A DNA stretch of 48,235 nucleotides from assembly GCA_029858345.1 (NCBI GenBank), contig JAOUFG010000005.1, positions 1 to 48,235 of the forward strand, read 5' to 3'. The stretch's first letter is position 1. Each line of letters starts with the position of its first letter. Source of the stretch: Phycisphaerae bacterium. GTDB taxonomy: Bacteria; Planctomycetota; Phycisphaerae; Sedimentisphaerales; Anaerohalosphaeraceae. Below the pieces are notes generated by a model, which did no database searches, was not told the origin of the DNA, and was given only the letters and a program-made list of their open reading frames with translations. Position numbers and translations under genes: made by a program. Positions 17,463-48,085 of this stretch are shown here, piece after piece.

Positions 17463-17562
17463 CAAAATGTAAATGCTAAAAGTCAAAATTGAGGTGTCGG
17501 CTGCGCCGACTGCTATTTTATTATTCAGTCCGCCGAAGGCGGTTCCTTAATTTTACATTTTG
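17463..17562. repeat. Dyad-rich inserted element between atpA and atpG
   Basis: The 135-bp spacer has outer inverted repeats CAAAATGTAAA (17463-17473) and TTTACATTTTG (17552-17562). They enclose two GC-rich hairpins, GTCGGC-TGC-GCCGAC (17496-17510) and CCGCC-GAA-GGCGG (17530-17542). It looks like a MITE-sized insertion or a processing/attenuation structure. All other atp junctions are short or overlapping, apart from the repeat array at atpB/atpE. Confidence 0.7.
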
Positions 17563-17587
17563 GATTTTAACTTTTAACTTTTTGCAG

Positions 17588-19111
17588 CTATGCGCCGAAT
17601 GAGAACCTGTAAATCGTTTTATAGGCCTCGACGGCATCTTTGAGGCCCGACATCAGATTCTCGTCAATGTCACCAATCTGTTCAATCATCTCAAGATACT
17701 CCGGCGCTTCCAGTTCCATCCACGAAACCAGTTCATCCATAAAGTGATTCACACGATGCACATCAATGTCATCCAATACTCCGGCAGATCCGGCAAGAAT
17801 ACTGATGACTTCCTGCGCGACACTCATGGGAGCAAACTGCTTTTGCTTGAGGATTTCCACCATCCGGTAGCCACGGTCAAGCTGTTTCTGGGCCGCTTCA
17901 TCCAGTTCCGTGCCCAAACGGGCGAAGTCCTGCAGTTCACGAAACGCCGCCAAATCCAGACGCAATTTAGGAGCCACCTTTTTCATCGCCTTGGGCTGGG
18001 CATTGCCGCCGACACGGCTGACACTAATGCCCACATCGATCGCCGGCCTGACACCGGCCAAAAACAGGGACCGCTGCAGATAAATCTGGCCGTCCGTGAT
18101 CGAAATGATATTGGTCGGGATATAAGCCGAGACCTGACCTTCCAAGGTCTCGATAATCGGCAGCGAGGTCAACGACCCGCCGCCGCGTTCATCGCTGAGC
18201 TTGGACGCCCGCTCCAGCAGGCGACTGTGCAGATAGAAAATATCACCCGGATAGGCCTCGCGTCCCGGCGGACGCCGCAGCAGCAAACTCAACTCACGAT
18301 AGGCGATGGCGTGCTTGCTGAGGTCATCATAGACGCACAATGCGTGACCTTTTTTATCATACATGAAATACTCGCCGATAGCTGTGCCCGCATACGGCGC
18401 GATAAATTGCATCGCAGAGCTTTCCGAAGCCCCCGCCATCACAACAATCGTATGCTCCATCGCGCCGTGGGCTTCCAGCGTCGCCACGACCTCGGCGACC
18501 GTCGACTCTTTCTGCCCGATGGCAACATAGATACAGACGACATCTTTGCCTTTCTGGTTGATGATGGTATCCAGCGCGATCGCGGTCTTGCCGGTTTTAC
18601 GGTCTCCGATGATTAATTCACGCTGGCCCCGGCCAATCGGGACCATCGCGTCAACGCTTTTAAGGCCCGTTGCCAGCGGCTCTTTGACCGGCTGGCGTTC
18701 AGCGATCCCCGGCGCGGCAAATTCGACAAACCGGGTCTGCTCGGACTGAATCACACCTTTGCCATCAATCGGCTCACAGAGGGCATTGACTACGCGGCCC
18801 AGCAACGCCTCGCCAACAGGAACTGAAAGCACCTTGCCGGTTCCGCGGACCCCGGCCCCTTCCCGGACCTTGGTATAGTCGCCGTAGATCACCGCGCCAA
18901 CCGAGTCTTCATCCAAGTTAAACACCTCACCGACCACGCCGCCGTCAAACTCCAGCATCTCGCCGGCCATCGCGTTGTCCAAACCATACACACGGGTGAT
19001 GCCATCGCCGACTTCCAACACTGTGCCGACTTTGGCAACATCGGCCTGTGTTTTATATCGCCTGACCTCTTCTTTGATCAGACCGCTGATTTCGTTAACA
19101 TCAAATTTCAT
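17588..19111 (-). CDS. atpA: ATP synthase F1 subunit alpha
   Basis: Regulatory nucleotide-binding subunit of the F1 head. Walker A reads GDRKTGKT (the usual GDRQTGKT with Lys for Gln). [21 protein letters not shown], with the arginine-finger region, and the [34 protein letters not shown] region (given in part) are conserved. The length of 507 residues is normal. It lies 15 nt after atpH. Confidence 0.98.
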
Positions 19112-20660: not shown

Positions 20661-20700
20661 AACTAAAAACTACGAACTATGAACTATGAACTATGAACTA
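20661..20700. repeat. Heptamer array (TAGTTCA type) between atpB and atpE
   Basis: On the minus strand five tandem copies of TAGTTC[A/G/T] run directly from the atpB stop codon toward atpE, which begins about 43 nt further on. It belongs to the heptamer family seen again at 33.4, 33.8, 35.7, 36.8, 37.9 and 38.2 kb. Confidence 0.85.
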
Positions 20701-21510
20701 TTAGTGTTCTTCGCTGACAGCAAACATAATAAAAATCGCCGTCAAAAACACGAAAATATACGCCTGCAGAAACGCCACGAATATCTCCAGTAAACTCATC
20801 AGGGTTGTGGCCATAATTGATGCCGACGCAACCATGTAATTCTTAAACATAATAATGAAACCCAGCAAAACACCCAGCAGGATATGTCCCGCTAAGATAT
20901 TGGCAAACAATCGAATCGCCAACGAAAACAGCCGCACAAAGGAACTGAGCAGCTCCATGACGAACATAAACGGCATAATCAGCCATGGCACTTTCGGCGA
21001 CAGCGTCGCCAGATATTTTCCAAGCCCTTTTTCGCGAATTCCGGCCGCGTGAAACAAAAAGAACGCAATGGTTGCCAATGTCCCCGTTACATAGATATTC
21101 GCAGTGGCCGCCCCACCCCAATGCTGGTTTTGGCCAAATGGCAAAAGCCAAACAATCTGAGCCAGCGGCGTCAGTCCCAGCAGGTTCATTGTCAGAATAA
21201 AGAAAAACAGTGTCCAAAGCACCCCGATATAGCGGTCCGTGTGGTCCTTCAGCATCGGACGGGCCATGTCTTCACGTAAATAGACACAAATTGTTTCGAT
21301 CGCATTCTTAAAGCCACGAGGAATAAGGGCCTTCTGACGAATCACCAGCGGCAACACAATCATCAGCACAATCGACGCCAGTGCAATCATAAACATGTGA
21401 TTGGTAAACGCAAAGGTCCAGGAACCAATAGTAAACTCATGAATCGGCCGGCTGACCACTTCTTCAAGCGGGTTTTCGATGCCTGCTAATAATATCCCAA
21501 ATGTTCCCAT
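20701..21510 (-). CDS. atpB: ATP synthase Fo subunit a
   Basis: Stator membrane subunit forming the ion half-channels against the c ring. Multiple membrane helices are clear, and the essential arginine is Arg200 in SLAIRLFANILAGH. The length of 269 residues is normal. The ATG at 21510 overlaps the end of the upstream atpI-like gene by 47 bases. The stop codon abuts a heptamer array. Confidence 0.97.
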   Translation of the reverse strand: MGTFGILLAGIENPLEEVVSRPIHEFTIGSWTFAFTNHMFMIALASIVLMIVLPLVIRQKALIPRGFKNAIETICVYLREDMARPMLKDHTDRYIGVLWTLFFFILTMNLLGLTPLAQIVWLLPFGQNQHWGGAATANIYVTGTLATIAFFLFHAAGIREKGLGKYLATLSPKVPWLIMPFMFVMELLSSFVRLFSLAIRLFANILAGHILLGVLLGFIIMFKNYMVASASIMATTLMSLLEIFVAFLQAYIFVFLTAIFIMFAVSEEH

Positions 21511-25301: not shown

Positions 25302-25424
25302 ATGGCTAAGAAAAAAGCAGCTAAGAAGAAAGTTGCTAAGAAGAAAGTAGCAAAGAAGAAAGTAGCAAAGAAGAAAGTAGCAAAGAAGAAAGCCACCAAA
25401 AAGAAAGCCACCAAAAAGAAATAG
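25302..25424 (+). CDS. Lysine-rich histone H1-like microprotein (pentapeptide repeats)
   Basis: A 40-residue protein made of eight pentapeptides of the type (A/V)(A/T)KKK after the initiator Met; 24 of 40 residues are lysine. It resembles the basic tails of bacterial histone H1-like proteins and should bind DNA or RNA non-specifically. It is preceded by GAAAGGAGGTGAT, 13 contiguous bases complementary to the usual 16S rRNA 3' tail, and followed by a terminator, so it looks like a real, strongly translated monocistronic gene. The middle is built from near-identical 15-bp tandem units, so copy number may vary between strains. Confidence 0.85.
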   Translation: MAKKKAAKKKVAKKKVAKKKVAKKKVAKKKATKKKATKKK

Positions 25425-25461
25425 CGGTGCGAGTTTCGACTCCACTTAAGTGGCAGCAAAC

Positions 25462-32529: not shown

Positions 32530-33373
32530 GGAAAACTGCCCGCTGGCCGGTTTTACTTGGTACGGACTGGGGGGCAATGCGGATTTCCTGATTTGTCCCC
32601 AGAACACCGAACAGCTTAAGGCCGTCGTGCTTCGCTGCCGCGAAAACGAGGTCCCTTTACGTGTTTTGGGGTTCGGGTCCAATCTGCTGGTCAGTGACGA
32701 GGGTGTGCGCGGCGCGGTTTTAAAACTGGATTCGGACGAATTCTGCAATTTCGAATTCTCCGGCAATACCCTTGTCGCGGGCGCCGGGGTGAACCTGAAT
32801 AAAATGGTATTGGATTCGGTTCGCAAGGGCCTCAGCGGCCTCGAGGCGTTAACCGGTATTCCGGGTTCGGTCGGCGGCGCGGTACGGATGAACGCCGGGG
32901 GCAGCTTCGGCGATATTGGCTCGTCCATTCAAAGCATTACCGTGATGGACAAACTGGGCAATATCTTCGAGAAAGAAAAACCGGAACTGGTCTTTGATTA
33001 TCGCTGGGTGAACATCACGGCGCCGGTTATCCTGAAAGCAACGATCGAATTAGCGGAATCGGACCCGGACGCCATGCTCAAAACCGTGAAGGAGGTGTGG
33101 ATTTACAAGAAAAATTCCCAGCCGCTGAACACGAAAAATGCCGGCTGCATCTTCAAAAACCCCCGCGGCATTAGCGCCGGGGCACTCATCGACCGCGCCG
33201 GGCTAAAAGGCACCCAAATGGGCGCCGCCGTGGTCAGTGAAAAGCACGCCAATTTTATTACCACTGAAAAAGGGTGCACCAGCAGCGACATCCAAAAACT
33301 GATCGAGCTGATTCAAACCAAGGTCCGGGACACCTTCGATGTGGAACTGGAACTGGAACTGGAAATCTGGTGA
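32495..33373 (+). CDS. murB: UDP-N-acetylenolpyruvoylglucosamine reductase
   Basis: FAD enzyme that reduces enolpyruvyl-UDP-GlcNAc to UDP-MurNAc. FAD-binding motifs GFGSNLLVSDEG and TGIPGSVGGAVRMNAGG are clear, and the C-terminal substrate domain ends with SEKHANFI. The length of 292 residues places it with the shorter type II enzymes. The catalytic loop reads GCIFKNP, with Cys where E. coli-type enzymes have Ser; other bacterial MurB proteins share this. The ATG lies inside the 3' end of murC, implying translational coupling. Confidence 0.96.
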   Translation: MSIFSGLENIVKENCPLAGFTWYGLGGNADFLICPQNTEQLKAVVLRCRENEVPLRVLGFGSNLLVSDEGVRGAVLKLDSDEFCNFEFSGNTLVAGAGVNLNKMVLDSVRKGLSGLEALTGIPGSVGGAVRMNAGGSFGDIGSSIQSITVMDKLGNIFEKEKPELVFDYRWVNITAPVILKATIELAESDPDAMLKTVKEVWIYKKNSQPLNTKNAGCIFKNPRGISAGALIDRAGLKGTQMGAAVVSEKHANFITTEKGCTSSDIQKLIELIQTKVRDTFDVELELELEIW

Positions 33374-33376
33374 AAT

Positions 33377-33407
33377 AGTTCGTAGTTCATGGTTCGTAGT
33401 TTGTAGA
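33377..33407. repeat. Heptamer array (TAGTTCG type), left of the four-helix-bundle gene
   Basis: Four heptamers TAGTTCG/TAGTTCA/TGGTTCG/TAGTTTG start three bases after the murB stop. They form an inverted pair with the array at 33811-33842. Confidence 0.85.
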
Positions 33408-33426
33408 TTTGATTGGAGCGTCGGTA

Positions 33427-33810
33427 ATGACTGAACTTGTTTCTTTTAACTTTGAAAGGCTTTCTGTCTATCAAAAGGCCCTTGATGTCATCGATAAGGT
33501 TTATGAGTACACGAATGCCTTCCCGAAAGAGGAAATGTTTGGGTTAACGTCTCAATTTCGCCGATCCGCCGTTTCAATCTCTTTGAATATCGCAGAGGGT
33601 TCAGCAAGAAGCAAGAAAGACTTCCGACGTTTTTTGGATATTGCACACGGATCTGTGTTTGAATGCGTTGCGACGGTAGAAATCTGCAGAAGAAGGCAAT
33701 ATATCAAGGAATCGATTGTGTTGCAGTTACGAGAAGCTTTTACAGAAATCTCAAAAATGATTAGCGGCCTTAAAAAGAGCATCGGTTTCTCTGACCGTTG
33801 TGAGTCATAA
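33427..33810 (+). CDS. Four-helix bundle protein (23S rRNA intervening-sequence/S23 family)
   Basis: A 127-residue all-helical protein with the S23/IVP family signatures: FERLSVYQKALDV, FGLTSQFRRSAVSISLNIAEGSAR (cited in part) and a long C-terminal helix. Family members occur in rRNA intervening sequences and, as related proteins, next to diversity-generating retroelements; their function is not settled. GGAG lies 9 nt before the ATG at 33427. The gene interrupts the murB-ddl junction and is flanked by inverted heptamer arrays, so it looks like inserted cargo rather than a cell-wall gene. Confidence 0.92.
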   Translation: MTELVSFNFERLSVYQKALDVIDKVYEYTNAFPKEEMFGLTSQFRRSAVSISLNIAEGSARSKKDFRRFLDIAHGSVFECVATVEICRRRQYIKESIVLQLREAFTEISKMISGLKKSIGFSDRCES

Positions 33811-33842
33811 TCTATGAACCACGAACTACGAACTACGAACTT
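33811..33842. repeat. Heptamer array (ACGAACT type) containing the ddl start codon
   Basis: ATGAACC and three ACGAACT heptamers follow the four-helix-bundle stop codon directly. The ATG variant of the unit is the predicted ddl start. It is inverted relative to 33377-33407. Confidence 0.85.
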
Positions 33843-34764
33843 AAAAGTTGCCGTGCTGGCCGGCGGGGTGGGTGCTGAGCGAGAGGTCAGCTTACAGAGC
33901 GGCGAGAACATTTACAACGCCCTGCTGGAAGGCGGGGTCGATGCGGTTCAGTCTGATATTACGCCGGATGACTTGGGGATTCTTGATGATGCTTCGATTG
34001 ATGTCTTTTTTCTGGCTTTGCACGGGCAATTCGGGGAGGATGGGCGTCTTCAAGAAATCCTCGAAGACAGGAACCTGTGTTTTACCGGCGCCGGGTCGGA
34101 GGCCAGCCGGAAATCATTTGATAAACTGCTCAGCAAGCAGGCCTTTTTCCATGCGCACCTGCCCATCGCCAGGCATCTGATCGTGCAATCTGACGATACG
34201 CCGGCGTACCTGGAAAAGCAGCTCAAAAAGCTTGCAACCAAGTTTGTCATCAAGCCCTTAAAGCAAGGCAGCAGCGTCGGAATCGAAATCTTCAATGATG
34301 CCTCGGCCGCCGCTGCCGGTGCCTTGGCGTGTTTTCAGCGGTACGGCGACTGTATGGTCGAGGAATTCGTCGCCGGCCGTGAGGTTACCGTCGGGATTCT
34401 CAACGGTGCCGCCCTTCCGCCGATCGAAATCCGCAGCAAAACGGGCTTTTATGACTATCACGCCAAGTATGTCGATGACGCAACCGAATACCTCTTTGAT
34501 ACGATCACAGACGATGGGCTCGTCGCGGACATTCAGCAAATGGCCCTGACCTGCTTTCATGAGCTCGGATGCCGGCACTTGAGCCGTGTGGATTTTATCT
34601 TAACAGAAGACAGTATTCCGTATATACTCGAGATCAATACCCTGCCGGGGTTTACAAGTCATTCGCTGCTGCCGATGGCGGCGAGAAAGGCCGGTATCCC
34701 GACGCCGTTATTATGTATGGAGATCGTTGAAGCAGCATGGAACGAATACCAATCTGAAATCTGA
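33814..34764 (+). CDS. ddl: D-alanine--D-alanine ligase
   Basis: ATP-grasp ligase making the D-Ala-D-Ala dipeptide for peptidoglycan. Motifs: VAVLAGGVGAEREVSLQSG, KFVIKPLKQGSSVGIEI, VEEFVAGREVTVGIL, and the C-terminal ILEINTLPGFTSHSLLP, typical of Ddl. The first nine residues (MNHELRTTN) are encoded by the heptamer array, and the family normally begins right at xKVAVLAGG, so the repeat appears to have replaced the original start. No ribosome site is visible. The stop codon also lies in a different heptamer array (TCTGAAA type, 34753-34774). Confidence 0.95.
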   Translation: MNHELRTTNLKVAVLAGGVGAEREVSLQSGENIYNALLEGGVDAVQSDITPDDLGILDDASIDVFFLALHGQFGEDGRLQEILEDRNLCFTGAGSEASRKSFDKLLSKQAFFHAHLPIARHLIVQSDDTPAYLEKQLKKLATKFVIKPLKQGSSVGIEIFNDASAAAAGALACFQRYGDCMVEEFVAGREVTVGILNGAALPPIEIRSKTGFYDYHAKYVDDATEYLFDTITDDGLVADIQQMALTCFHELGCRHLSRVDFILTEDSIPYILEINTLPGFTSHSLLPMAARKAGIPTPLLCMEIVEAAWNEYQSEI

Positions 34765-34774
34765 AATCTGAGAT
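34753..34774. repeat. Heptamer array (TCTGAAA type) containing the ddl stop codon
   Basis: Three tandem TCTGA[A/G]A units; the TGA of the second unit is read as the ddl stop. The ftsQ-like gene starts 10 bases later. Confidence 0.75.
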
Positions 34775-34783
34775 ACTGTAACG

Positions 34784-35740
34784 ATGGCCAGAAAGAAAAA
34801 AACAACGAGAAAGAAGACAGGCGGGTTTTTCTCCAAAACCAAGAAACGCCGCAAAAACAAAAACCGCCCGTCATTTGCGACCGGGGTGAAGGTCGCACTG
34901 ACGATTCTGTTTCTGACCGTTTTGGTCGGCGGCGGCGCCGTCGGCCTGATCTACCTGGACCGCTATGTGAAGGCCGCCGCGGCAGACGAAATTCCGGAAG
35001 GGACCGTCGTGTTTAAAAAGCCGCCAATCTGGCTGAACCAGGAATGGAAAGACTGGATTCAAGCTGTCCTCGGCAGTGCCGCATTTCCCCTGGATGCGCA
35101 CTCGGCACAGATCGTTTCCGGAAAACTCAAACCGGTCGCGTGGTTTAAGGACCTCACCGTCCAGACAGAACCCAACGGCATCAACGTGTATGCCACGTAT
35201 CGACGGCCCGTCGGGCTTATTTCTTCCGGGAACAAAAAATTGTATATCGGCGATGATATGACCGTCATGAACTATATTCCCATGGCGGCCGTCCCGGTGA
35301 TCGAAATAAAAGGCGCTTCAACCAAGGCGCCGGAACCGGGGCAGGTGTGGCTTGCCGAAGATGCGAAAGCCGCCGTCGAACTGCTGAACCTGCTGTATCG
35401 AATCGATCAACTCTATCAGCAGGACACCGGAACCAGCACGGGCGGCAAAATTCCGGAAAAGCCCCTGTTGAATGAGATTGACAGCATCGACGTTTCCAAC
35501 TTCGCCGGGCGCCAAAGCCGTTCCCATGATAAACCGCAGATTGTCTTAAATGTCAAGGACGGAACGAAAGTGTACTGGGGCGCCGCATGGGGACAGGCCG
35601 CGAATGCTTTCGAGGCGGATGAAAAAACAAAACTGGACCGGCTCTATCAGTGGTTTATGGAACACGATAATTCGCTGCAGGGAACCGTCAAAATTATCGA
35701 GCTGCGCTGGCTGCAAGACAGCATCCCGCGACCACGGTAG
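34784..35740 (+). CDS. FtsQ/DivIB-like division protein
   Basis: A 318-residue bitopic membrane protein: a very basic cytoplasmic head (MARKKKTTRKKTGG, to about residue 34), one membrane helix (about 38-58, TILFLTVLVGGGAVGLIYL), then an extracytoplasmic domain of about 250 residues with POTRA/FtsQ-like character. The position directly after murC-murB-ddl is the classical place of ftsQ. Sequence similarity alone is too weak to be certain, hence no symbol. Its stop codon TAG is the first triplet of a heptamer array. No ftsA or ftsZ follows. Confidence 0.7.
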   Translation: MARKKKTTRKKTGGFFSKTKKRRKNKNRPSFATGVKVALTILFLTVLVGGGAVGLIYLDRYVKAAAADEIPEGTVVFKKPPIWLNQEWKDWIQAVLGSAAFPLDAHSAQIVSGKLKPVAWFKDLTVQTEPNGINVYATYRRPVGLISSGNKKLYIGDDMTVMNYIPMAAVPVIEIKGASTKAPEPGQVWLAEDAKAAVELLNLLYRIDQLYQQDTGTSTGGKIPEKPLLNEIDSIDVSNFAGRQSRSHDKPQIVLNVKDGTKVYWGAAWGQAANAFEADEKTKLDRLYQWFMEHDNSLQGTVKIIELRWLQDSIPRPR

Positions 35741-35764
35741 TTCTTAGTTCGTGGTTCTTCGTTT
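35738..35764. repeat. Heptamer array at the ftsQ-like/ykgJ-type stop codons
   Basis: TAGTTCT-TAGTTCG-TGGTTCT-type units. On the plus strand the first TAG is the ftsQ-like stop; on the minus strand the array supplies the TAA that ends the convergent cysteine-cluster gene. Confidence 0.8.
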
Positions 35765-36181
35765 CGGATTTTTCTTCAGCATCTCCAAGCCGGACTGAAG
35801 ATAGACATAGCGATAATCAAGCCCGTATTCATTGCACAGGGCTTTGAATCTGCGGACGGCTTCTTCACAGACGGCATTTTCTTTTTTCGAATCCCCCTTG
35901 CACGTGAAAATCCGGCATCCGGCAAAGCGGTATGGATAGACCGTGCATTTGCCGCCGATGCGATAGGGACAGACGCCGGTGGTCATTTCCTTAATCTCCG
36001 GGCCAAGATGATGCCGAAAGTACATCAGTTCCGGTGTTGTCACGTACAGCCGGTGGCCGAAGGATTCAAAATCACAGCACTTTCCGCAGGCATCGCAGGT
36101 TTGGCTGAGTTTGGCCAATTCGCCTTCGAGCCATTGGTAGATACCGCTAACCTCCGAAATGATTTGATTCACTTTCTTCAT
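35744..36181 (-). CDS. YkgJ-family cysteine-cluster protein
   Basis: A protein of about 145 residues with the CxxCGxCC motif (TCDACGKCC) and a second Cys group (CPYRIGGKC ... GCRIFTC), typical of the YkgJ family thought to bind zinc or an iron-sulfur centre; its function is unknown. The start is taken as ATG at 36181, while an in-frame GTG at 36196 would add five residues. The sequence directly upstream is a CACAGATTA-type repeat. The last codons and the stop (RRTTN*) are encoded by a heptamer array. Confidence 0.85.
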   Translation of the reverse strand: MKKVNQIISEVSGIYQWLEGELAKLSQTCDACGKCCDFESFGHRLYVTTPELMYFRHHLGPEIKEMTTGVCPYRIGGKCTVYPYRFAGCRIFTCKGDSKKENAVCEEAVRRFKALCNEYGLDYRYVYLQSGLEMLKKNPKRRTTN

Positions 36182-36198
36182 TGCTTGGTTGTCCACAG

Positions 36199-36256
36199 AT
36201 TACACCGATTAACACAGATAATTACAACCACGAAAAACACGAAAGACACTAAATGA
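36199..36256. repeat. CACAGATTA/CACGAAA-type short tandem array
   Basis: Degenerate 9-11-bp units (CACAGATTA, CACCGATTAA, CACAGATAATTA, then CACGAAAAA, CACGAAAGA) fill the spacer in front of the ykgJ-type gene. This family recurs at 39.75, 39.88, 40.55, 41.8, 45.2, 45.3, 46.1, 46.3, 46.6, 47.9 and 48.0 kb. Confidence 0.75.
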
Positions 36257-36315
36257 AAAAACAAACTTAACCACAGATTATTTATTGAAGTCATTTCTTC
36301 GTGCTCTTCGTGGTG

Positions 36316-36762
36316 TTATTCGTCGTCCCACCATTGTTTCTGGTTCATGATGGTTTCAATTTCTTCAAAGGAGTAGAACCGGCCGCGGTTGATGCCGGGA
36401 CATCGGGCGGCGGCCATATTCCACTGGTCCGGGGTGTGGAGATTGAACGACCAGAACGGCCAGGTGCGGCACTGGTTGGGCCGGACCGAATAGATTGCAC
36501 AGCCGCGGCAGGCGCCCTGTTCGGACATCAGGAAGATGCAGTCTTTGGTTTTAGCGTTTTCCTTAATGCTGTGCTTGACACCGATACGCTTGAGATACTT
36601 TTTCTTCACGTCTTCAACCGTTGTTCCAAAGTGTTTTGCAAGGAACTCTACCTCTTTTTTGACGATCCAGATATAGCCCTCTTCCGGTCCCGCACAGCAA
36701 TTGCCGCAACCGGTGCATTCAAAGTGAAGTCCGCAGTGATACCATTTGTTTTTAGAGTTCAT
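36316..36762 (-). CDS. Second YkgJ-family cysteine-cluster protein
   Basis: A 148-residue protein with a CTGCGNCC cluster near the N-terminus and further Cys residues in CIFLMSEQGACRGCAIYSVRPNQC (cited as CIFL, CRGC and NQC), characteristic of the YkgJ family. It is a distant relative of the neighbouring 35744-36181 gene, perhaps an old duplicate. The ATG at 36762 lies inside a heptamer array (variant unit ATGAACT), and no ribosome site is present. It may bind a metal; the role is unknown. Confidence 0.85.
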   Translation of the reverse strand: MNSKNKWYHCGLHFECTGCGNCCAGPEEGYIWIVKKEVEFLAKHFGTTVEDVKKKYLKRIGVKHSIKENAKTKDCIFLMSEQGACRGCAIYSVRPNQCRTWPFWSFNLHTPDQWNMAAARCPGINRGRFYSFEEIETIMNQKQWWDDE

Positions 36763-36800
36763 AGTTCGTAGTTCTTAGTTCGTAGATTGTAGACAGTAGA
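36757..36800. repeat. Heptamer array containing a gene start codon
   Basis: AGTTCAT-AGTTCGT-AGTTCTT-AGTTCGT units, then AGATTGT-AGACAGT. On the minus strand the unit ATGAACT carries the start codon of the second ykgJ-type gene. Confidence 0.8.
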
Positions 36801-36826
36801 AAATTCCGCAGTGTGGCTCAAGATAT

Positions 36827-37795
36827 TTAGGACAGGGGCCAGTCGGGCTGGATGATTTCATCCTGTTTGAGCATGCAAACGCCGTCGGGACACGAACCAA
36901 TGTCCGGTACCAAGGGCTGGCCGTTGCGCAAGGCGATAACCTTTTTGCAGAAATCCGCCCCGGCCATGTGGGAGCAGGGATAACCGCCTCCAAAACGGGG
37001 ATTTATTTCGAGCAACGCCGGGCCCTCTTTCGTTAAGATAACATCGACATCCGCGGGACCGAGCAGTTTCATACTTTTCAAAAGCTTATGACCAAATTCG
37101 ATCAGCACTGGATCAGCAGTGCTGACGGCCTTGTCGGTTTCGCCGGCACGCATGGCGAGTTTTTCTTTGCAGTAGACACTTACAGGCCGAAAATCCTGAT
37201 CGCCGAAAAGGTCGTAGCCGTATTCAGTGCCATCGAGAATTTCCTGTATCATCGGCTCCGTTACGGATTCAAACGCCGCTTCCAGTTGAAGTTTATCATG
37301 GCAAATCATGATATCAACCGAGGCGCTGCCCTTACGGGGTTTGACCATGACCGGCCAGTTTAAGGCCCCTACCGTAAGTTGGTCCAGAGCGACGGCTATG
37401 TCGATAAATGTCTGGGGAGTGGCCAAGCCGTTGGCAATCGCAAACTGATGTGTCTGGTACTTATCAGACCCCATCTGGATGGTTTCCGGCGGTGAGACCA
37501 GCAACAGCACGCCGGCATCGGAGAACTGCTGCTGACAGGTGGCGAGCACCTCCAGTTCCGGGTCGATCAGCGGGATGACGATGTCGATGGCATTGTCGCG
37601 GCAGATTTCCAGCAGAGATTGGACATAGTGGTCCTTATTGACCTCAGGCAGGATCGCAGTCCCGTCGCAGTAGGCAAATGCCGGTGAATGCGGACTGTTA
37701 TCGCCGCCGAAGACCTTGCCATTGGGACCCAGGGCCTCTTTGAAGTATTTGACGAGATAACCCCGCCTGCCTACGGATGTCAGTAGAATGTTCAT
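36827..37795 (-). CDS. ATP-grasp domain protein (carbamoyl-phosphate-synthase-like)
   Basis: A 322-residue cytosolic ligase-like protein. The N-terminal pre-ATP-grasp Rossmann part starts MNILLTSVGRRGYLVKYF; the ATP-grasp core has PVMVKPRKGSASVDI and the metal-binding VDVILTKEGPALLEINPRFGGGYPCSH (cited as EINPRFGGG). It resembles stand-alone CarB-like ATP-grasp proteins found in nucleotide-sugar or peptide-forming clusters. The substrate is unknown. The 5' leader on the minus strand is itself a 7-bp array (TGAGNNN complement, 37807-37834) running almost to the ATG. Confidence 0.88.
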   Translation of the reverse strand: MNILLTSVGRRGYLVKYFKEALGPNGKVFGGDNSPHSPAFAYCDGTAILPEVNKDHYVQSLLEICRDNAIDIVIPLIDPELEVLATCQQQFSDAGVLLLVSPPETIQMGSDKYQTHQFAIANGLATPQTFIDIAVALDQLTVGALNWPVMVKPRKGSASVDIMICHDKLQLEAAFESVTEPMIQEILDGTEYGYDLFGDQDFRPVSVYCKEKLAMRAGETDKAVSTADPVLIEFGHKLLKSMKLLGPADVDVILTKEGPALLEINPRFGGGYPCSHMAGADFCKKVIALRNGQPLVPDIGSCPDGVCMLKQDEIIQPDWPLS

Positions 37796-37806
37796 CTCTT
37801 TAGCCT

Positions 37807-37834
37807 TGAGCCCTGAGGCGTGAGACCTGAGGAC
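37807..37834. repeat. Heptamer array (TGAGNNN type) in the leader of the ATP-grasp gene
   Basis: Four exact-length units TGAGCCC, TGAGGCG, TGAGACC, TGAGGAC. On the minus strand this is the 5' leader of the gene starting at 37795. Confidence 0.75.
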
Positions 37835-37854
37835 CTCTTTTCAATCTTACCCAA

Positions 37855-38220
37855 ATGGGTTCGTTTGGTAAAACAGTTCTTAGTTCATTGTTCGTGGTTC
37901 GTAGTTTTCGGTCATTAGCCAACAGCTTTTAGCAGCTCGCTATTCGCGGTTCACATCAACACCGCTTATTATTCGACCCTGTCAGGGTCGAAGGTCTTTT
38001 TGCAACCATTATCCCCGGGTTTCGCTTCCGTCTTCGCTCTTCGAGCTGCGACGGACAATCCGCTGCACCCGGGGCTACCCTTATTTAAGCCCTTTGGGCT
38101 TATTGTGCGGCGACGCAACCCAACAGATGCCACAGTCACCTTTTACGCTTACGCAATCGGGTAGCTCGCGCTGCCGCGCTGTTGCCAGATGGGTTCGTTT
38201 GGTAAAACAGTTCTTAGTTC
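37855..38220. repeat. Pair of exact 32-bp direct repeats in a gene-poor spacer
   Basis: The 32-bp sequence starting ATGGGTTCGTTTGG and ending TTCTTAGTTC occurs at 37855-37886 and 38189-38220, and its first 14 bases occur again at 38743-38756. Each full copy leads into a heptamer array (37873-37935; 38213-38275). Between them are small palindromes such as GACCCTG-TCAGGGTC (37976-37990) and AAGCCC-TTT-GGGCTT (38088-38102). No gene is supported here. Confidence 0.8.
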
Positions 38221-38275
38221 TTAGTTCTTAGCTATTAGCCTTTAGCTGTTAGCGGTTAGTTTTTAGCGGCCAGTA
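38213..38275. repeat. Heptamer array (TTAGTTC grading into TTAGCTG)
   Basis: TAGTTCT units grade into TAGCTAT, TAGCCTT, TAGCTGT and TAGCGGT units, showing that the two heptamer types intergrade. It overlaps the 3' end of the 38-codon ORF on the minus strand. Confidence 0.75.
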
Positions 38276-38365
38276 GCCAGCTTTCAGCTTTTTAGATTCA
38301 ACGCGGGCCATGCCTACCCTACTATTTTCGACATAATTGGTTGGCTTCTTGAGCCGCCCTGCCAT
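38249..38365 (-). CDS. Possible 38-residue basic microprotein
   Basis: The minus strand has GAAAGGAGATAAAG directly before an ATG at 38365, a strong ribosome site. The ORF encodes 38 residues (begins MAGRLKKPTNYVENSRVG), and its last third and stop are formed by the heptamer array. It may be a real small gene, or the 5' remnant of a longer gene whose 3' part was replaced by repeats. I do not recognise a family. Confidence 0.35.
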   Translation of the reverse strand: MAGRLKKPTNYVENSRVGMARVESKKLKAGYWPLKTNR

Positions 38366-38574
38366 CTTTATCTCCTTTCATAGCGATATTTGGCTCATAA
38401 TGCAAGGAATTTGTTAGCTATTAGTTATCAGACTTCAGATGTCAGATTTCAGAAATCAGTTCAATGCCGCCCGCTGCGCGGGCTCGATTCAAAGGACCGT
38501 GACCACAAACCACGCCCTTCCCCCTTCGCTTTCGGCTACGGCGGGACCAGCACGGGCGAGGCTACATCATTTCA

Positions 38575-38594
38575 CCCGCTACGCGGGCTTTTTT
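38575..38594 (+). terminator. Short hairpin with T-run
   Basis: CCCGC-TAC-GCGGG followed by CTTTTTT. The stem is short and no gene is recognised upstream on this strand, so it may only be one of the small palindromes common in these spacers. Confidence 0.3.
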
Positions 38595-38811
38595 GAAGTC
38601 TTTCAGTTAGCAGTCATCCGCGGTTAGCTGTTGAACCGTCTGGACCCCGGGTCCTGCCGTCGCTAAAGCTTCTGTCTTCGCATAAAGCTTCGACAAGATA
38701 AAATGGCAAGACACGCAAGCCCGGGGTGACACTTTGTGTCAAATGGGTTCGTTTGGGTGCCTTAGAGGCACATAAGCGAAATCTGCAATCGCGCTTCGCT
38801 GCTGCAGATTT

Positions 38812-39729
38812 TCAACTGGTTTCTGGCTCGGATGCCTGGACCTCGATGGCCTGACGCTGCCGGCGGAGGTACTGAAGCTTGTTGAGTTCGTTCAACGCCC
38901 GGTAAAAACTGCTCTCAAATTGCATTTTGTACCGGGAAAATTTCAGCATCAGATTGGGGCCGGAAAAATCGTTCCGGATCTCCCTGCTCAACGAAATTGG
39001 CTCGGTAAACGGCGCTGCCTGCTGCAATGGGTCCGCGACCCCTCCTTCGGGAGAAGCATCGTCCCGATTTTGCCGGAATGCTGTCTTCTGCTGATTCTGC
39101 TCCAGCATGACCTGGTACGACAGATCCGTCCGGTGCGGCTCGCAAGCCGGCTGATCGAATGGAGCAGCGGGCTGCAGTGCCTGCTCATTTAGCCGGTCGC
39201 GGGCTTTCAGGTCCAAGGCGGTCCAGAACTTGTCAAACTCCTGTACCGGCGTGGGACATCGCGAATCAACCGGCCAATCGTTATCACGATAGCATTTCCC
39301 CGATTCCGTCTTCAACCAGGCATCCCGGGCATCGACAAATGGAACACAATGCTGTGACGCCACGGCCGGAAGGTGCGCCCCGTACTCGATCCGTTTGGCA
39401 GCGGCACGCTGCCGCAACTGCTCGGTGTCCTGCATGTGCCTGAACAGATCGCCCTCGATCCGTTCGACACGCTGGAGTTTCCATAACGTCACGGCAATCT
39501 GATCGACCAGACGGGACTCCAGAACGCCCTCGGGGGAAAACTGGGCGAGCAGTTCAGTGCTGAACTGCTCATAGTCATCGCTGCTTTCCCCGAGGATGAC
39601 GACCTGCTCGGCACGGAGGCCGTGCCGCAAGGCGTTCTGAGACGCGATGGCTTTGCCTTCGGCGGACCGGGGACCGGTGGAACGGAGGGCATTTTGACGG
39701 TTTGCGATAAGTTGTTTTTCAGATATCAT
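38812..39729 (-). CDS. 'STGP' family protein of unknown function
   Basis: A 305-residue soluble protein opening with ISEKQLIANRQNALRSTGPR and continuing SAEGKAIASQNALRHGL. This is the signature of a family often present in several copies in planctomycetes and acidobacteria and lacking a known function. The remainder is helical, with no signal peptide. GAAAGGA about eight bases before the ATG supports the start. It is surrounded on both sides by repeat-filled spacers of about 1 kb. Confidence 0.8.
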   Translation of the reverse strand: MISEKQLIANRQNALRSTGPRSAEGKAIASQNALRHGLRAEQVVILGESSDDYEQFSTELLAQFSPEGVLESRLVDQIAVTLWKLQRVERIEGDLFRHMQDTEQLRQRAAAKRIEYGAHLPAVASQHCVPFVDARDAWLKTESGKCYRDNDWPVDSRCPTPVQEFDKFWTALDLKARDRLNEQALQPAAPFDQPACEPHRTDLSYQVMLEQNQQKTAFRQNRDDASPEGGVADPLQQAAPFTEPISLSREIRNDFSGPNLMLKFSRYKMQFESSFYRALNELNKLQYLRRQRQAIEVQASEPETS

Positions 39730-39746
39730 ACGTTTTCCTTTCGATT

Positions 39747-40118
39747 TTGAACCACGAATTCACACGAATTTACACTAATTGTATTTTTGAACTTCTATTT
39801 TCAATTATCAAAGTTGCGATTTAGCGCACAGGGGGTATTTTATAATTTTTTCCAGTGTTTGAAAAATTTTTCTAAATTAACCACTGATTCCACGGATTTG
39901 CACAGATTAGAATTATTACCATCAGTCTTCGCCATTCTTCTCTGCATAAAGATACGCAAAAACCGGCTAGGGCCTGACAGGCGAATGGACACCCGCCGTT
40001 GTTAAAACTTTGGCTCGGCAGACGAATTTACACGAATAACAGTTTTTAGCTGTCAGCTGTTGGCTCTTAGCTGTTAGTTGTTAGCTGTTAGCTGTTAGCC
40101 GTTGGCTGTTGGCTGTTT
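39747..40118. repeat. Repeat island: CACGAATT arrays, nested hairpin element and a long heptamer array
   Basis: CACGAATT-type units (39747-39782), CACGGATT/CACAGATT units (39877-39912), an imperfect hairpin element of the TTCGC...TACG type (39925-39985), then about ten TTAGCTG/TTGGCTG heptamers (40044-40118). No coding sequence can be supported between 39730 and 40683. Confidence 0.75.
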
Positions 40119-40304
40119 TGAATTTTTTTTGACCCCTTCAGGGTCGCTCCCATTAATACATGTCAACCACGGGTTTCGGTCGCGTTGCTTCCTGCACCCG
40201 CGGCTACCATTGTTCAAGCCCCCAGGGCTTTATAGCGGAAAGTTTGTTGTTGCCTGATTTGGGATGTCCGGTTAGAATACCGTATCAGGGATGTAGGAAC
40301 TCAA

Positions 40305-40352
40305 GTATGTAAGTATGCAGGTATGTAGGTATGTACGTATACAGGTATATAG
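40305..40352. repeat. Octamer tandem array (GTATGTAG type)
   Basis: Exactly six 8-bp units: GTATGTAA, GTATGCAG, GTATGTAG, GTATGTAC, GTATACAG and GTATATAG. The same octamer class appears inside both 178-bp direct repeats (45.2 and 46.4 kb). Confidence 0.85.
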
Positions 40353-40683
40353 GGCCGACGCCATTATTAGAACGCCGCCTGATTCTTTCTTGTAGAATCC
40401 GCCTGTTTGCGGATGGTTGCTTAAACAGATCCGCTTCCTCCTTCGCTTCCTGCTTCGCATCAAGCTACGCAGGACAAGACGCTACCAAGGACAGGTCGGT
40501 CGGGATGACGACGAAAAAAATGAGAATTTAGAATTAAGAAATATCTGAACCACTAATGGACACGAATTGTCACGAATATTTTAAAACCACCCCGGCCTTC
40601 CGTCGTCGCTTTTCAAGCTATGACGGGATACGACGGCCACCCCTCCTTAAAAAGGCGGGGAGTTTTTGAGAGGATATGATGGT

Positions 40684-46103: not shown

Positions 46104-46366
46104 CACAGAACGCAGGAAAGAGAAGCACGAATCCACACCGATAACACGGATTATTGAACCGCGAATCCTACTACGCTAAAGCTACGCAGGACAGGTAGAC
46201 ACGGAAAGCACGAAAGAAAACAGATATCAGATTTCAGACATCAGCGGTCAGAAAAGAAAACTTGGAACCATGAAAAACACAAAAGACACTAAATGAAAAA
46301 ACAAACTTAACCACAGACCCGTCCTTCGCGGTAGCCTTGCTACGGAGGGTAAATTAGCACAGATTT
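46104..46366. repeat. Short-repeat island with nested hairpin elements
   Basis: CACGAATCC/CACGGATTATTGA-type units are interrupted by two hairpin-like elements, one around 46163-46195 (CTACGCTAAAGCTACGC) and one at 46317-46350 (TCCTTCGCGGTAGC-CTT-GCTACGGAGGG). The second lies inside an otherwise continuous CACAGA...TAGCACAGATTT unit, so it is nested. No gene is seen. Confidence 0.65.
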
Positions 46367-47918: not shown

Positions 47919-48085
47919 AAAGTCCACAGATTACACAGATTTCTCAGATTATTTTTAGCCATCAGCCTTCGCCAAGGCTACGGCCTGACAGGCGAATTAA
48001 CACTGATGTTCACGAATAATATTAACCACAAAATACACGAAAGACACGAAAGGGAACTTTTATTATTAACCACTGAAGACACCGA
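47919..48085. repeat. Terminal repeat island (CACAGATTA and CACGAAA types)
   Basis: CACAGATTA-type units (47919-47958), a nested TTCGCCAAGGCTACGGC hairpin element (47963-47995), then CACTGATGTT, CACGAATAA, CACGAAAGA and CACTGAAGA units. 48086-48172 holds nothing recognised. Confidence 0.65.

Follow-up and report, generated by a model that had tools for sequence, protein, structure and literature searches.

Dispersed short repeats that are cognate to a gene flanked by such repeats are familiar from REPIN-RAYT systems. An intervening sequence (IVS) of 428 nt in the 23S rRNA gene of Coxiella contains an S23p open reading frame (ORF), inverted ends, and tandem heptamers, but its mobility is only suspected (PMC4990558). 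Heptameric intergenic repeats have been described as TAACTGA (PMC4679880), GGGAATC (PMC4692102), and the heptanucleotide repeats of Calothrix (cited in PMC4692102), and genes for the 23S rRNA intervening-sequence protein (IVP) have been noted in cas loci (PMC3936711, PMC10910872). In the open-access literature, we found no report of a connection between IVP genes and dispersed heptamer arrays. Here, we describe an IVP gene between two inverted heptad arrays at the murB-ddl junction of a Phycisphaerae bacterium. The window (48,235 nucleotides; JAOUFG010000005.1) is one contig of the 3.01-Mb draft source genome (G000; GCA_029858345.1). We consider it probable that the 7- and 8-bp arrays of this and other genomes are the inverted ends and the scattered cognates of small mobile units that carry an IVP gene.

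An IVP unit between murB and ddl

The original prediction did not include the gene at 33427 to 33810 (+), which encodes a 127-amino-acid protein of the PF05635/TIGR02436 four helix bundle family (profile search, E value of 9.8e-35). It scores 119.4 bits for PF05635 (curated cut-off, 33.8) and 116 for TIGR02436 (cut-off, 24), and its nearest solved structure is 2gsc (XCC0516). The gene lies between murB and ddl, not inside a 23S rRNA gene, and is flanked by AGTTCGT-type arrays in opposite orientations (arms) that form a 33-nt inverted repeat with an 85% match. The left arm (33376 to 33409, +) runs into the IVP gene, while the right arm (33809 to 33841, −) abuts and overlaps the IVP stop codon and contains the ATG at 33814 that is used by ddl (33814 to 34764, +). 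The first ∼9 codons of ddl are thereby encoded by the right arm, with an array-encoded MNHELRTTNL preceding the usual KVAVLAGG.

By analogy with the plasmid units described below, TGAAA at 33371 to 33375 (+), which holds the murB stop TGA, and TAAAA at 33842 to 33846 (+) may be the left and right copies of a 5-bp target duplication that has since decayed. Without the unit, the junction would then read GTGAAAGTTGCC, a GTGA overlap of the murB stop and the ddl start, and we infer that the unit arose by the same kind of insertion as those on plasmids. Among relatives, the murB-ddl junction has an IVP gene in G008 and G021, a relic in G002, and no IVP gene in G003, G005, G006, and G007; the two genes overlap by 4 nt in G020 and G022.

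IVP genes and their arms in other genomes

The source genome has eight PF05635 genes, seven of which were counted by eye as having inverted 7- to 8-bp arms, of different families. When left flanks were compared with the reverse complement of right flanks (score of ≥24), inverted arms were found for 58 of the 77 IVP genes from the source genome and other members of its genus, family, and order, compared with 2.6% for swapped flanks; the flanks of 6 of these genes matched in direct orientation. A wider survey, comprising 80 loci in named genomes from a wide range of phyla and 11 plasmid loci, gave inverted arms for 70 of 89 IVP genes (6% for swapped flanks and 1 of 78 for other ORFs). The architecture of an IVP gene between inverted arrays spans many phyla. 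The arm period is 7 in 92 and 8 in 24 of the 128 armed IVP genes, and the units share an oriented skeleton of approximately YAG-NN-K-T (information content of 3.28 versus 2.39, with a maximum of 2.47, after column shuffling), to which the Y-A-R-G pattern of the 8-bp units is related. One gene, L006, has 40-bp palindromic arms that are identical on both sides (1401 to 1440 and 1873 to 1912), unlike those of other IVP genes.

Each IVP lineage has its own arm unit sequence. Between genera, arms matched in 11 of 48 pairs with protein identity of ≥55% but in only 12 of 1028 pairs below 45% (permutation P ≤ 0.0005), and a reverse-orientation control gave no arm matches in the ≥55% range. Near-identical recent duplicates of a unit within one genome were not found among the relatives.

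Arms could also be conserved for pairing in the transcript, with RNase III cutting the IVP insert from mRNA as it does from 23S rRNA. The RNA of 33360 to 33860 does fold with the arms paired (minimum free energy of −145.1; z score of −2.9), and excision of 23S rRNA IVSs by RNase III is established (PMC4990558). Nevertheless, we think such an RNA-level role unlikely: it leaves unexplained the cognate arrays that stand alone, and arm differences over 128 loci are symmetric for G-U pairing in sense versus antisense RNA (140 versus 137; P = 0.90). Because of this symmetry, it is more likely that the inverted match is kept at the DNA level, and RNA-stem maintenance was rejected on the null result of this strand-asymmetry test.

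Insertion of units at plasmid sites

Insertion of a unit can be read directly from cyanobacterial plasmids. Plasmid C of Trichormus variabilis has a unit where the plasmids of Tolypothrix, Nostoc linckia, and Aulosira, with flanks that are ∼98% identical, are empty. The insert consists of 423 bp plus a 5-bp target duplication, GTAAT, holding the upstream stop TAA, and the inserted piece is the whole unit, arms included. The same site has an internally deleted copy in pC052_E of Nostoc C052 and an ORF-less inverted-heptad unit in Brasilonema pBOCT2. Elsewhere, insertion is seen without a clear 5-bp duplication: Nostoc pNsp_c has a 503-bp unit at a TAATG stop/start overlap with an exact duplication of 3 bp. 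In Nostoc pC052_D/pNsp_a and Calothrix brevissima, the space separating a stop from the following start holds the unit, and the duplication is ambiguous or absent.

Units also occur in reduced forms. Plasmid pNsp_a has nested ORF-less units whose arms are those of its own IVP family, and at one place on two Nostoc plasmids, nested ORF-less units share an arm family and have differing interiors (L304, 464 to 741; L302, 464 to 788). Stanieria PCC 7437, which is 98% identical to NIES-3757 at the locus, retains the left arm but has neither the IVP gene nor the bulk of the right arm; this would represent one observed route to a solo array, the retained partial arm pointing to deletion as the direction of change. 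On cyanobacterial plasmids, type I-D CRISPR loci were further observed to have IVP units inserted between cas6 and cas4 (L278, 1201 to 1560; L283, 1186 to 1554). This insert is absent from related plasmids, and cas6-cas4 pairs of Pseudanabaena and Anabaena have relatives without the IVP gene, at junctions too diverged for unit ends to be read.

Solo arrays and cognate IVP genes

Arrays, including those without an adjoining IVP gene (solo arrays), were detected in a 561-kb sample of the source genome, consisting of 40 contig stretches picked by number and the window, in 20-kb stretches. Period 7 was prominent, with 32 arrays versus 1 in shuffled sequence, and the window alone had 6 period-7 arrays at a strict threshold versus 0.0 in dinucleotide shuffles. 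A search of the whole genome with AGTTCGTAGTTCGTAGTTC (≤3 mismatches) gave 153 matches, compared with 1 for the reversed control pattern. The window is a hot spot, since 16 of the 35 spacer arrays in the sample fall within it.

Several lines of evidence tie solo arrays to the IVP genes of their own genome. First, 22 of 43 non-IVP arrays of G000 match the arms of its own IVP genes, compared with 10.5 (maximum, 16) for random arm sets from other genera and 9.4 (maximum, 14) for those of congeners, and outside the window, the match extends to 15 of 21 arrays (6.5 expected; maximum, 12). The excess recurs in G021 (11 of 30 arrays versus 3.7; maximum, 9) and G057 (13 of 23 versus 0.9; maximum, 5), with a P value of <1/300 in each of the three genomes. 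Second, IVP-bearing genomes have 43 to 134 period-7/8 arrays per Mb, while none were found in 288 kb of the congener G006 or in 400 kb of G015, both IVP-free, where 9-bp arrays persist. Third, AGTTCGT matches across 59 genomes correlate with IVP number (rho = 0.55; median of 0 in IVP-free and 5 in IVP-bearing genomes), although the relatedness of the genomes makes these P values optimistic. In three pattern searches, the genome owning an IVP gene with matching arms ranked 1, 1, and 2 of 59, being first for CAGTTAT and second for GTATATAG. The 145 CAGTTAT matches of G032 are the most among the 59 genomes, and CAGTTAT arms flank its IVP gene L106. The TAACTGA repeat published for Beggiatoaceae and cyanobacteria is the reverse complement of these arms.

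These results bear on two explanations in which the IVP gene has no causal part. Microsatellite-like expansion by simple slippage would account for short degenerate tandem repeats, and 7-nt changes in copy number are known (PMC4679880, PMC4990558). It is nonetheless very improbable given the specificity for periods 7 and 8 with one oriented skeleton, the inversion of arrays around the IVP gene, and the lack of 7-/8-bp arrays in the two IVP-free relatives that keep 9-bp arrays, and it is contradicted by the cognate-array test. Alternatively, the IVP gene may be a passenger, inserting into arrays or acquiring them while another process spreads them, as might be suggested by the lack of catalytic motifs in the IVP and by the greater number of solo arrays than of units. 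We rate this as unlikely, as insertion into an array would leave direct rather than inverted flanks, the arms track the IVP lineage from one genus to another, such arrays are missing from the IVP-free genomes G006 and G015, and at the GTAAT site, the arms were inserted with the rest of the unit. The best reading of the solo arrays is that they are remnants or trans products of the mobile unit. Small hairpins were ruled out, as inverted partners are rarer than direct ones.

Proposed mechanism

The best reading is a small mobile element that is related to 23S rRNA IVSs and ends in tandem arrays. A complete unit of ∼420 to 500 bp would comprise one IVP gene between two inverted degenerate tandem arrays and would insert at gene junctions with a short target duplication, of 5 bp in the clear case. 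At stop/start overlaps, both neighbors may survive, with the duplication or the array supplying a stop and a start. Solo arrays might be left after loss of the ORF and the other arm or be made in trans on cognate arrays. The IVP may recognize the arms and drive movement or array spread, probably together with a host enzyme, which is the likeliest source of strand transfer because the IVP has no known catalytic domain. A more far-reaching proposal, for and against which we find the balance to be even, is that the IVP acts as a sequence-specific DNA factor for a mobile element of a new kind, i.e., a ∼120-amino-acid four-helix-bundle oligomer that binds its own YAG-skeleton array, moves the unit via a host enzyme, and seeds solo arrays in trans, which would explain the heptamer repeats of several bacterial groups.

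A number of observations weigh against the mobile-unit interpretation. The IVP lacks any known motif of a nuclease or transposase, and a profile search gives only PF05635/bAvd. Overall, the rank correlation between arm and protein similarity across genera is weak (P = 0.115), and the link is confined to close proteins. Some arrays and cognate genes do not coincide: G009 (70% complete) has 26 AGTTCGT matches and no IVP gene found, G004 leads the 8-bp family with no matching-armed IVP gene among those recovered, and this analysis found no IVP gene cognate to the window's TTAGCTG arrays. Most solo arrays of G000 have no inverted partner and are therefore not simply small copies of the unit. With respect to insertion, the plasmid cases are all cyanobacterial, and only one target duplication is unambiguous, the others being of 3 bp, an ambiguous 5 bp, 7 bp (in an ORF-less unit), or none. 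A blind scan for duplications of 4 to 7 bp over 124 loci was null. The boundaries of the window unit are themselves deduced, and TGAAA and TAAAA differ by one base.

Arrays at gene borders

The original prediction was that arrays dock on gene ends, and comparison with random placement in spacers was proposed as the test. For the 561-kb sample (449 ORF-called genes, 35 spacer arrays, and 300 random placements), this was borne out for stop codons, while starts, the positions of which are uncertain in ORF-based gene calls, were marginal. Stops lay inside 8 of the 35 arrays versus 2.4 expected, a number reached by none of the 300 placements, and within 5 bp of 10 of 35 (2.9 expected). Starts lay inside 4 (2.5 expected; not significant) and within 5 bp of 7 (3.1 expected; P = 0.03).

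Individual borders in the window were also compared with the arrays. Stops are in or against a solo AGTTCGT array at 20661 to 20701 (−; stop at 20701), a CAGATTT-type array across the ddl stop at 34751 to 34774 (−; stop at 34764), and an AGTTCGT array between convergent stops at 35738 to 35763 (+; ftsQ-like stop at 35740 and convergent end at 35744), the last also found by pattern search. An array at 17550 to 17582 ends near the gene stop at 17588, 5 bp away. The ddl start (33814) is inside a detected array of 33807 to 33841, that of the CxxCxxCC (ykgJ-type) gene (36762) is inside a solo AGTTCGT array at 36751 to 36800 (+), and that of the ATP-grasp gene (37795) is 2 bp from a solo GAGCCCT-type array at 37798 to 37831 (+). 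Other borders for which docking had been claimed were weak or did not hold: the GNAT start (42480) has only ∼2 degenerate units ∼10 bp away and its stop just weak 9- to 10-bp repeats from one detection method, and the 8-bp array nearest to the thiolase start is at least 17 bp away. For the hydroxyacyl-CoA dehydrogenase, there is an array at the start (47925 to 47950), of the 9-bp class, and only weak 9- to 10-bp repeats at the stop.

Docking on stops is largely mechanical, because, with TAG in a 7-bp unit, each of the three frames meets a stop within 21 bp. Arrays would meet borders for several reasons: units may survive mainly at gene junctions; a target duplication at overlapping stop and start codons could restore both; and TAG-type units would close every frame over this short distance, while the opposite strand stays open and holds ATG variants. 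The suggestion that repeats rewrite gene borders is partly upheld by the array-encoded N terminus of ddl and by units inserting at stop/start junctions of plasmid operons, but these changes do not stem from repeat expansion in spacers. When an insertion falls on a stop/start overlap, both genes can stay readable, and one can even gain a new N terminus.

A regulatory role of the kind suggested for TAACTGA repeats was also considered, in which the heptads bind a translational or transcriptional regulator, possibly the IVP, in mRNA or DNA and their position at starts and stops is functional. Contact with stops above chance is consistent with this, as is the location of Beggiatoaceae TAACTGA sets mostly just upstream of starts (PMC4679880), these being the reverse complement of the family flanking L106. 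However, starts show no enrichment beyond the P value of 0.03 at ≤5 bp, stops present in every frame would by themselves produce docking on stop codons, and units get inserted and lost. In addition, closely related genomes have different array families, and relatives that lack IVP genes have none of them. We therefore consider regulation an improbable basis for the arrays. The proposed part in transcription termination or initiation likewise found no support, as solo arrays are not hairpins and the strand-asymmetry counts are level.

Other arrays in the window

The remaining solo arrays of the window, all on the plus strand and found by array detection, include AGTTCGT (37875 to 37906), a composite of AGTTCTT and TTAGCTG (38209 to 38291), CAGATTT-type (38414 to 38459), TTAGCTG with ∼10 units (40041 to 40117), and CAGATAT-type (46215 to 46251) arrays. 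Three 8-bp arrays, also supported by pattern search, belong to the TAGGTATG family of the arms of IVP gene L004 (40303 to 40353, 45210 to 45246, and 46368 to 46407). The gene-poor 2.6 kb from 37798 to 40353 contains a cluster of six or more solo arrays, which belong to different families. The 9-bp arrays (CACGAAAGA and CACAGATTA; 36226 to 36253, 47925 to 47950, and 48027 to 48052) behave as a class distinct from the 7- and 8-bp arrays and are found alike in IVP-bearing and IVP-free relatives. A 15-bp tandem repeat, AAGAAGAAAGTAGCA, at 25308 to 25425 possibly codes for a lysine-rich tail.

Comparison with known systems

Insertion sequences and miniature inverted-repeat transposable elements resemble the IVP units in their inverted ends, short target duplications, and ORF-less relatives. 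An empty site and a target duplication (GTAAT, in one clear case) were found as for insertion sequences, but there is no recognizable transposase, the sole ORF being that of the IVP, and the ends are degenerate tandem arrays that differ by family. The accessory protein Avd of diversity-generating retroelements and bAvd have a distant sequence-family similarity to the IVP, although the window IVP scores below the Avd/bAvd cut-offs. A retroelement partner was rejected, as a profile search found no PF00078 reverse transcriptase in the source genome.

REPIN-RAYT is a functional analogy, in that dispersed repeats are cognate to the gene they flank. Unlike RAYT, a Y1 (HUH) transposase, the IVP is a four-helix bundle with no transposase motif, and its repeats are tandem heptads rather than palindromic REP pairs. 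The published heptamer repeats resemble the arrays in unit length, in their intergenic place, and in touching starts and stops. They were described without a partner gene or mechanism, and a match of the arrays of those genomes to IVP arms is a possibility; the IVP units offer a testable cause for such dispersed heptamer arrays. A family known as "four helix bundle" or "S23 ribosomal protein," noted in rRNA and cas loci, thereby gains an element, ends, and a partner sequence.

The closest counterparts are the 23S rRNA IVSs of Coxiella and Leptospira (PMC4990558), which share with the IVP units the protein family, inverted-repeat ends, size (428 nt in Coxiella versus 423 for the Trichormus insert), and tandem heptamers (GACAGAT) beside the ORF, with a copy number that varies by strain. 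In contrast, the units described here lie in spacers and operons rather than in rRNA, their arms are matched inverted heptad or octad arrays of many families, cognate solo arrays occur genome-wide, and insertion with target duplication is seen directly, so that the old question of 23S IVS mobility becomes directly testable.

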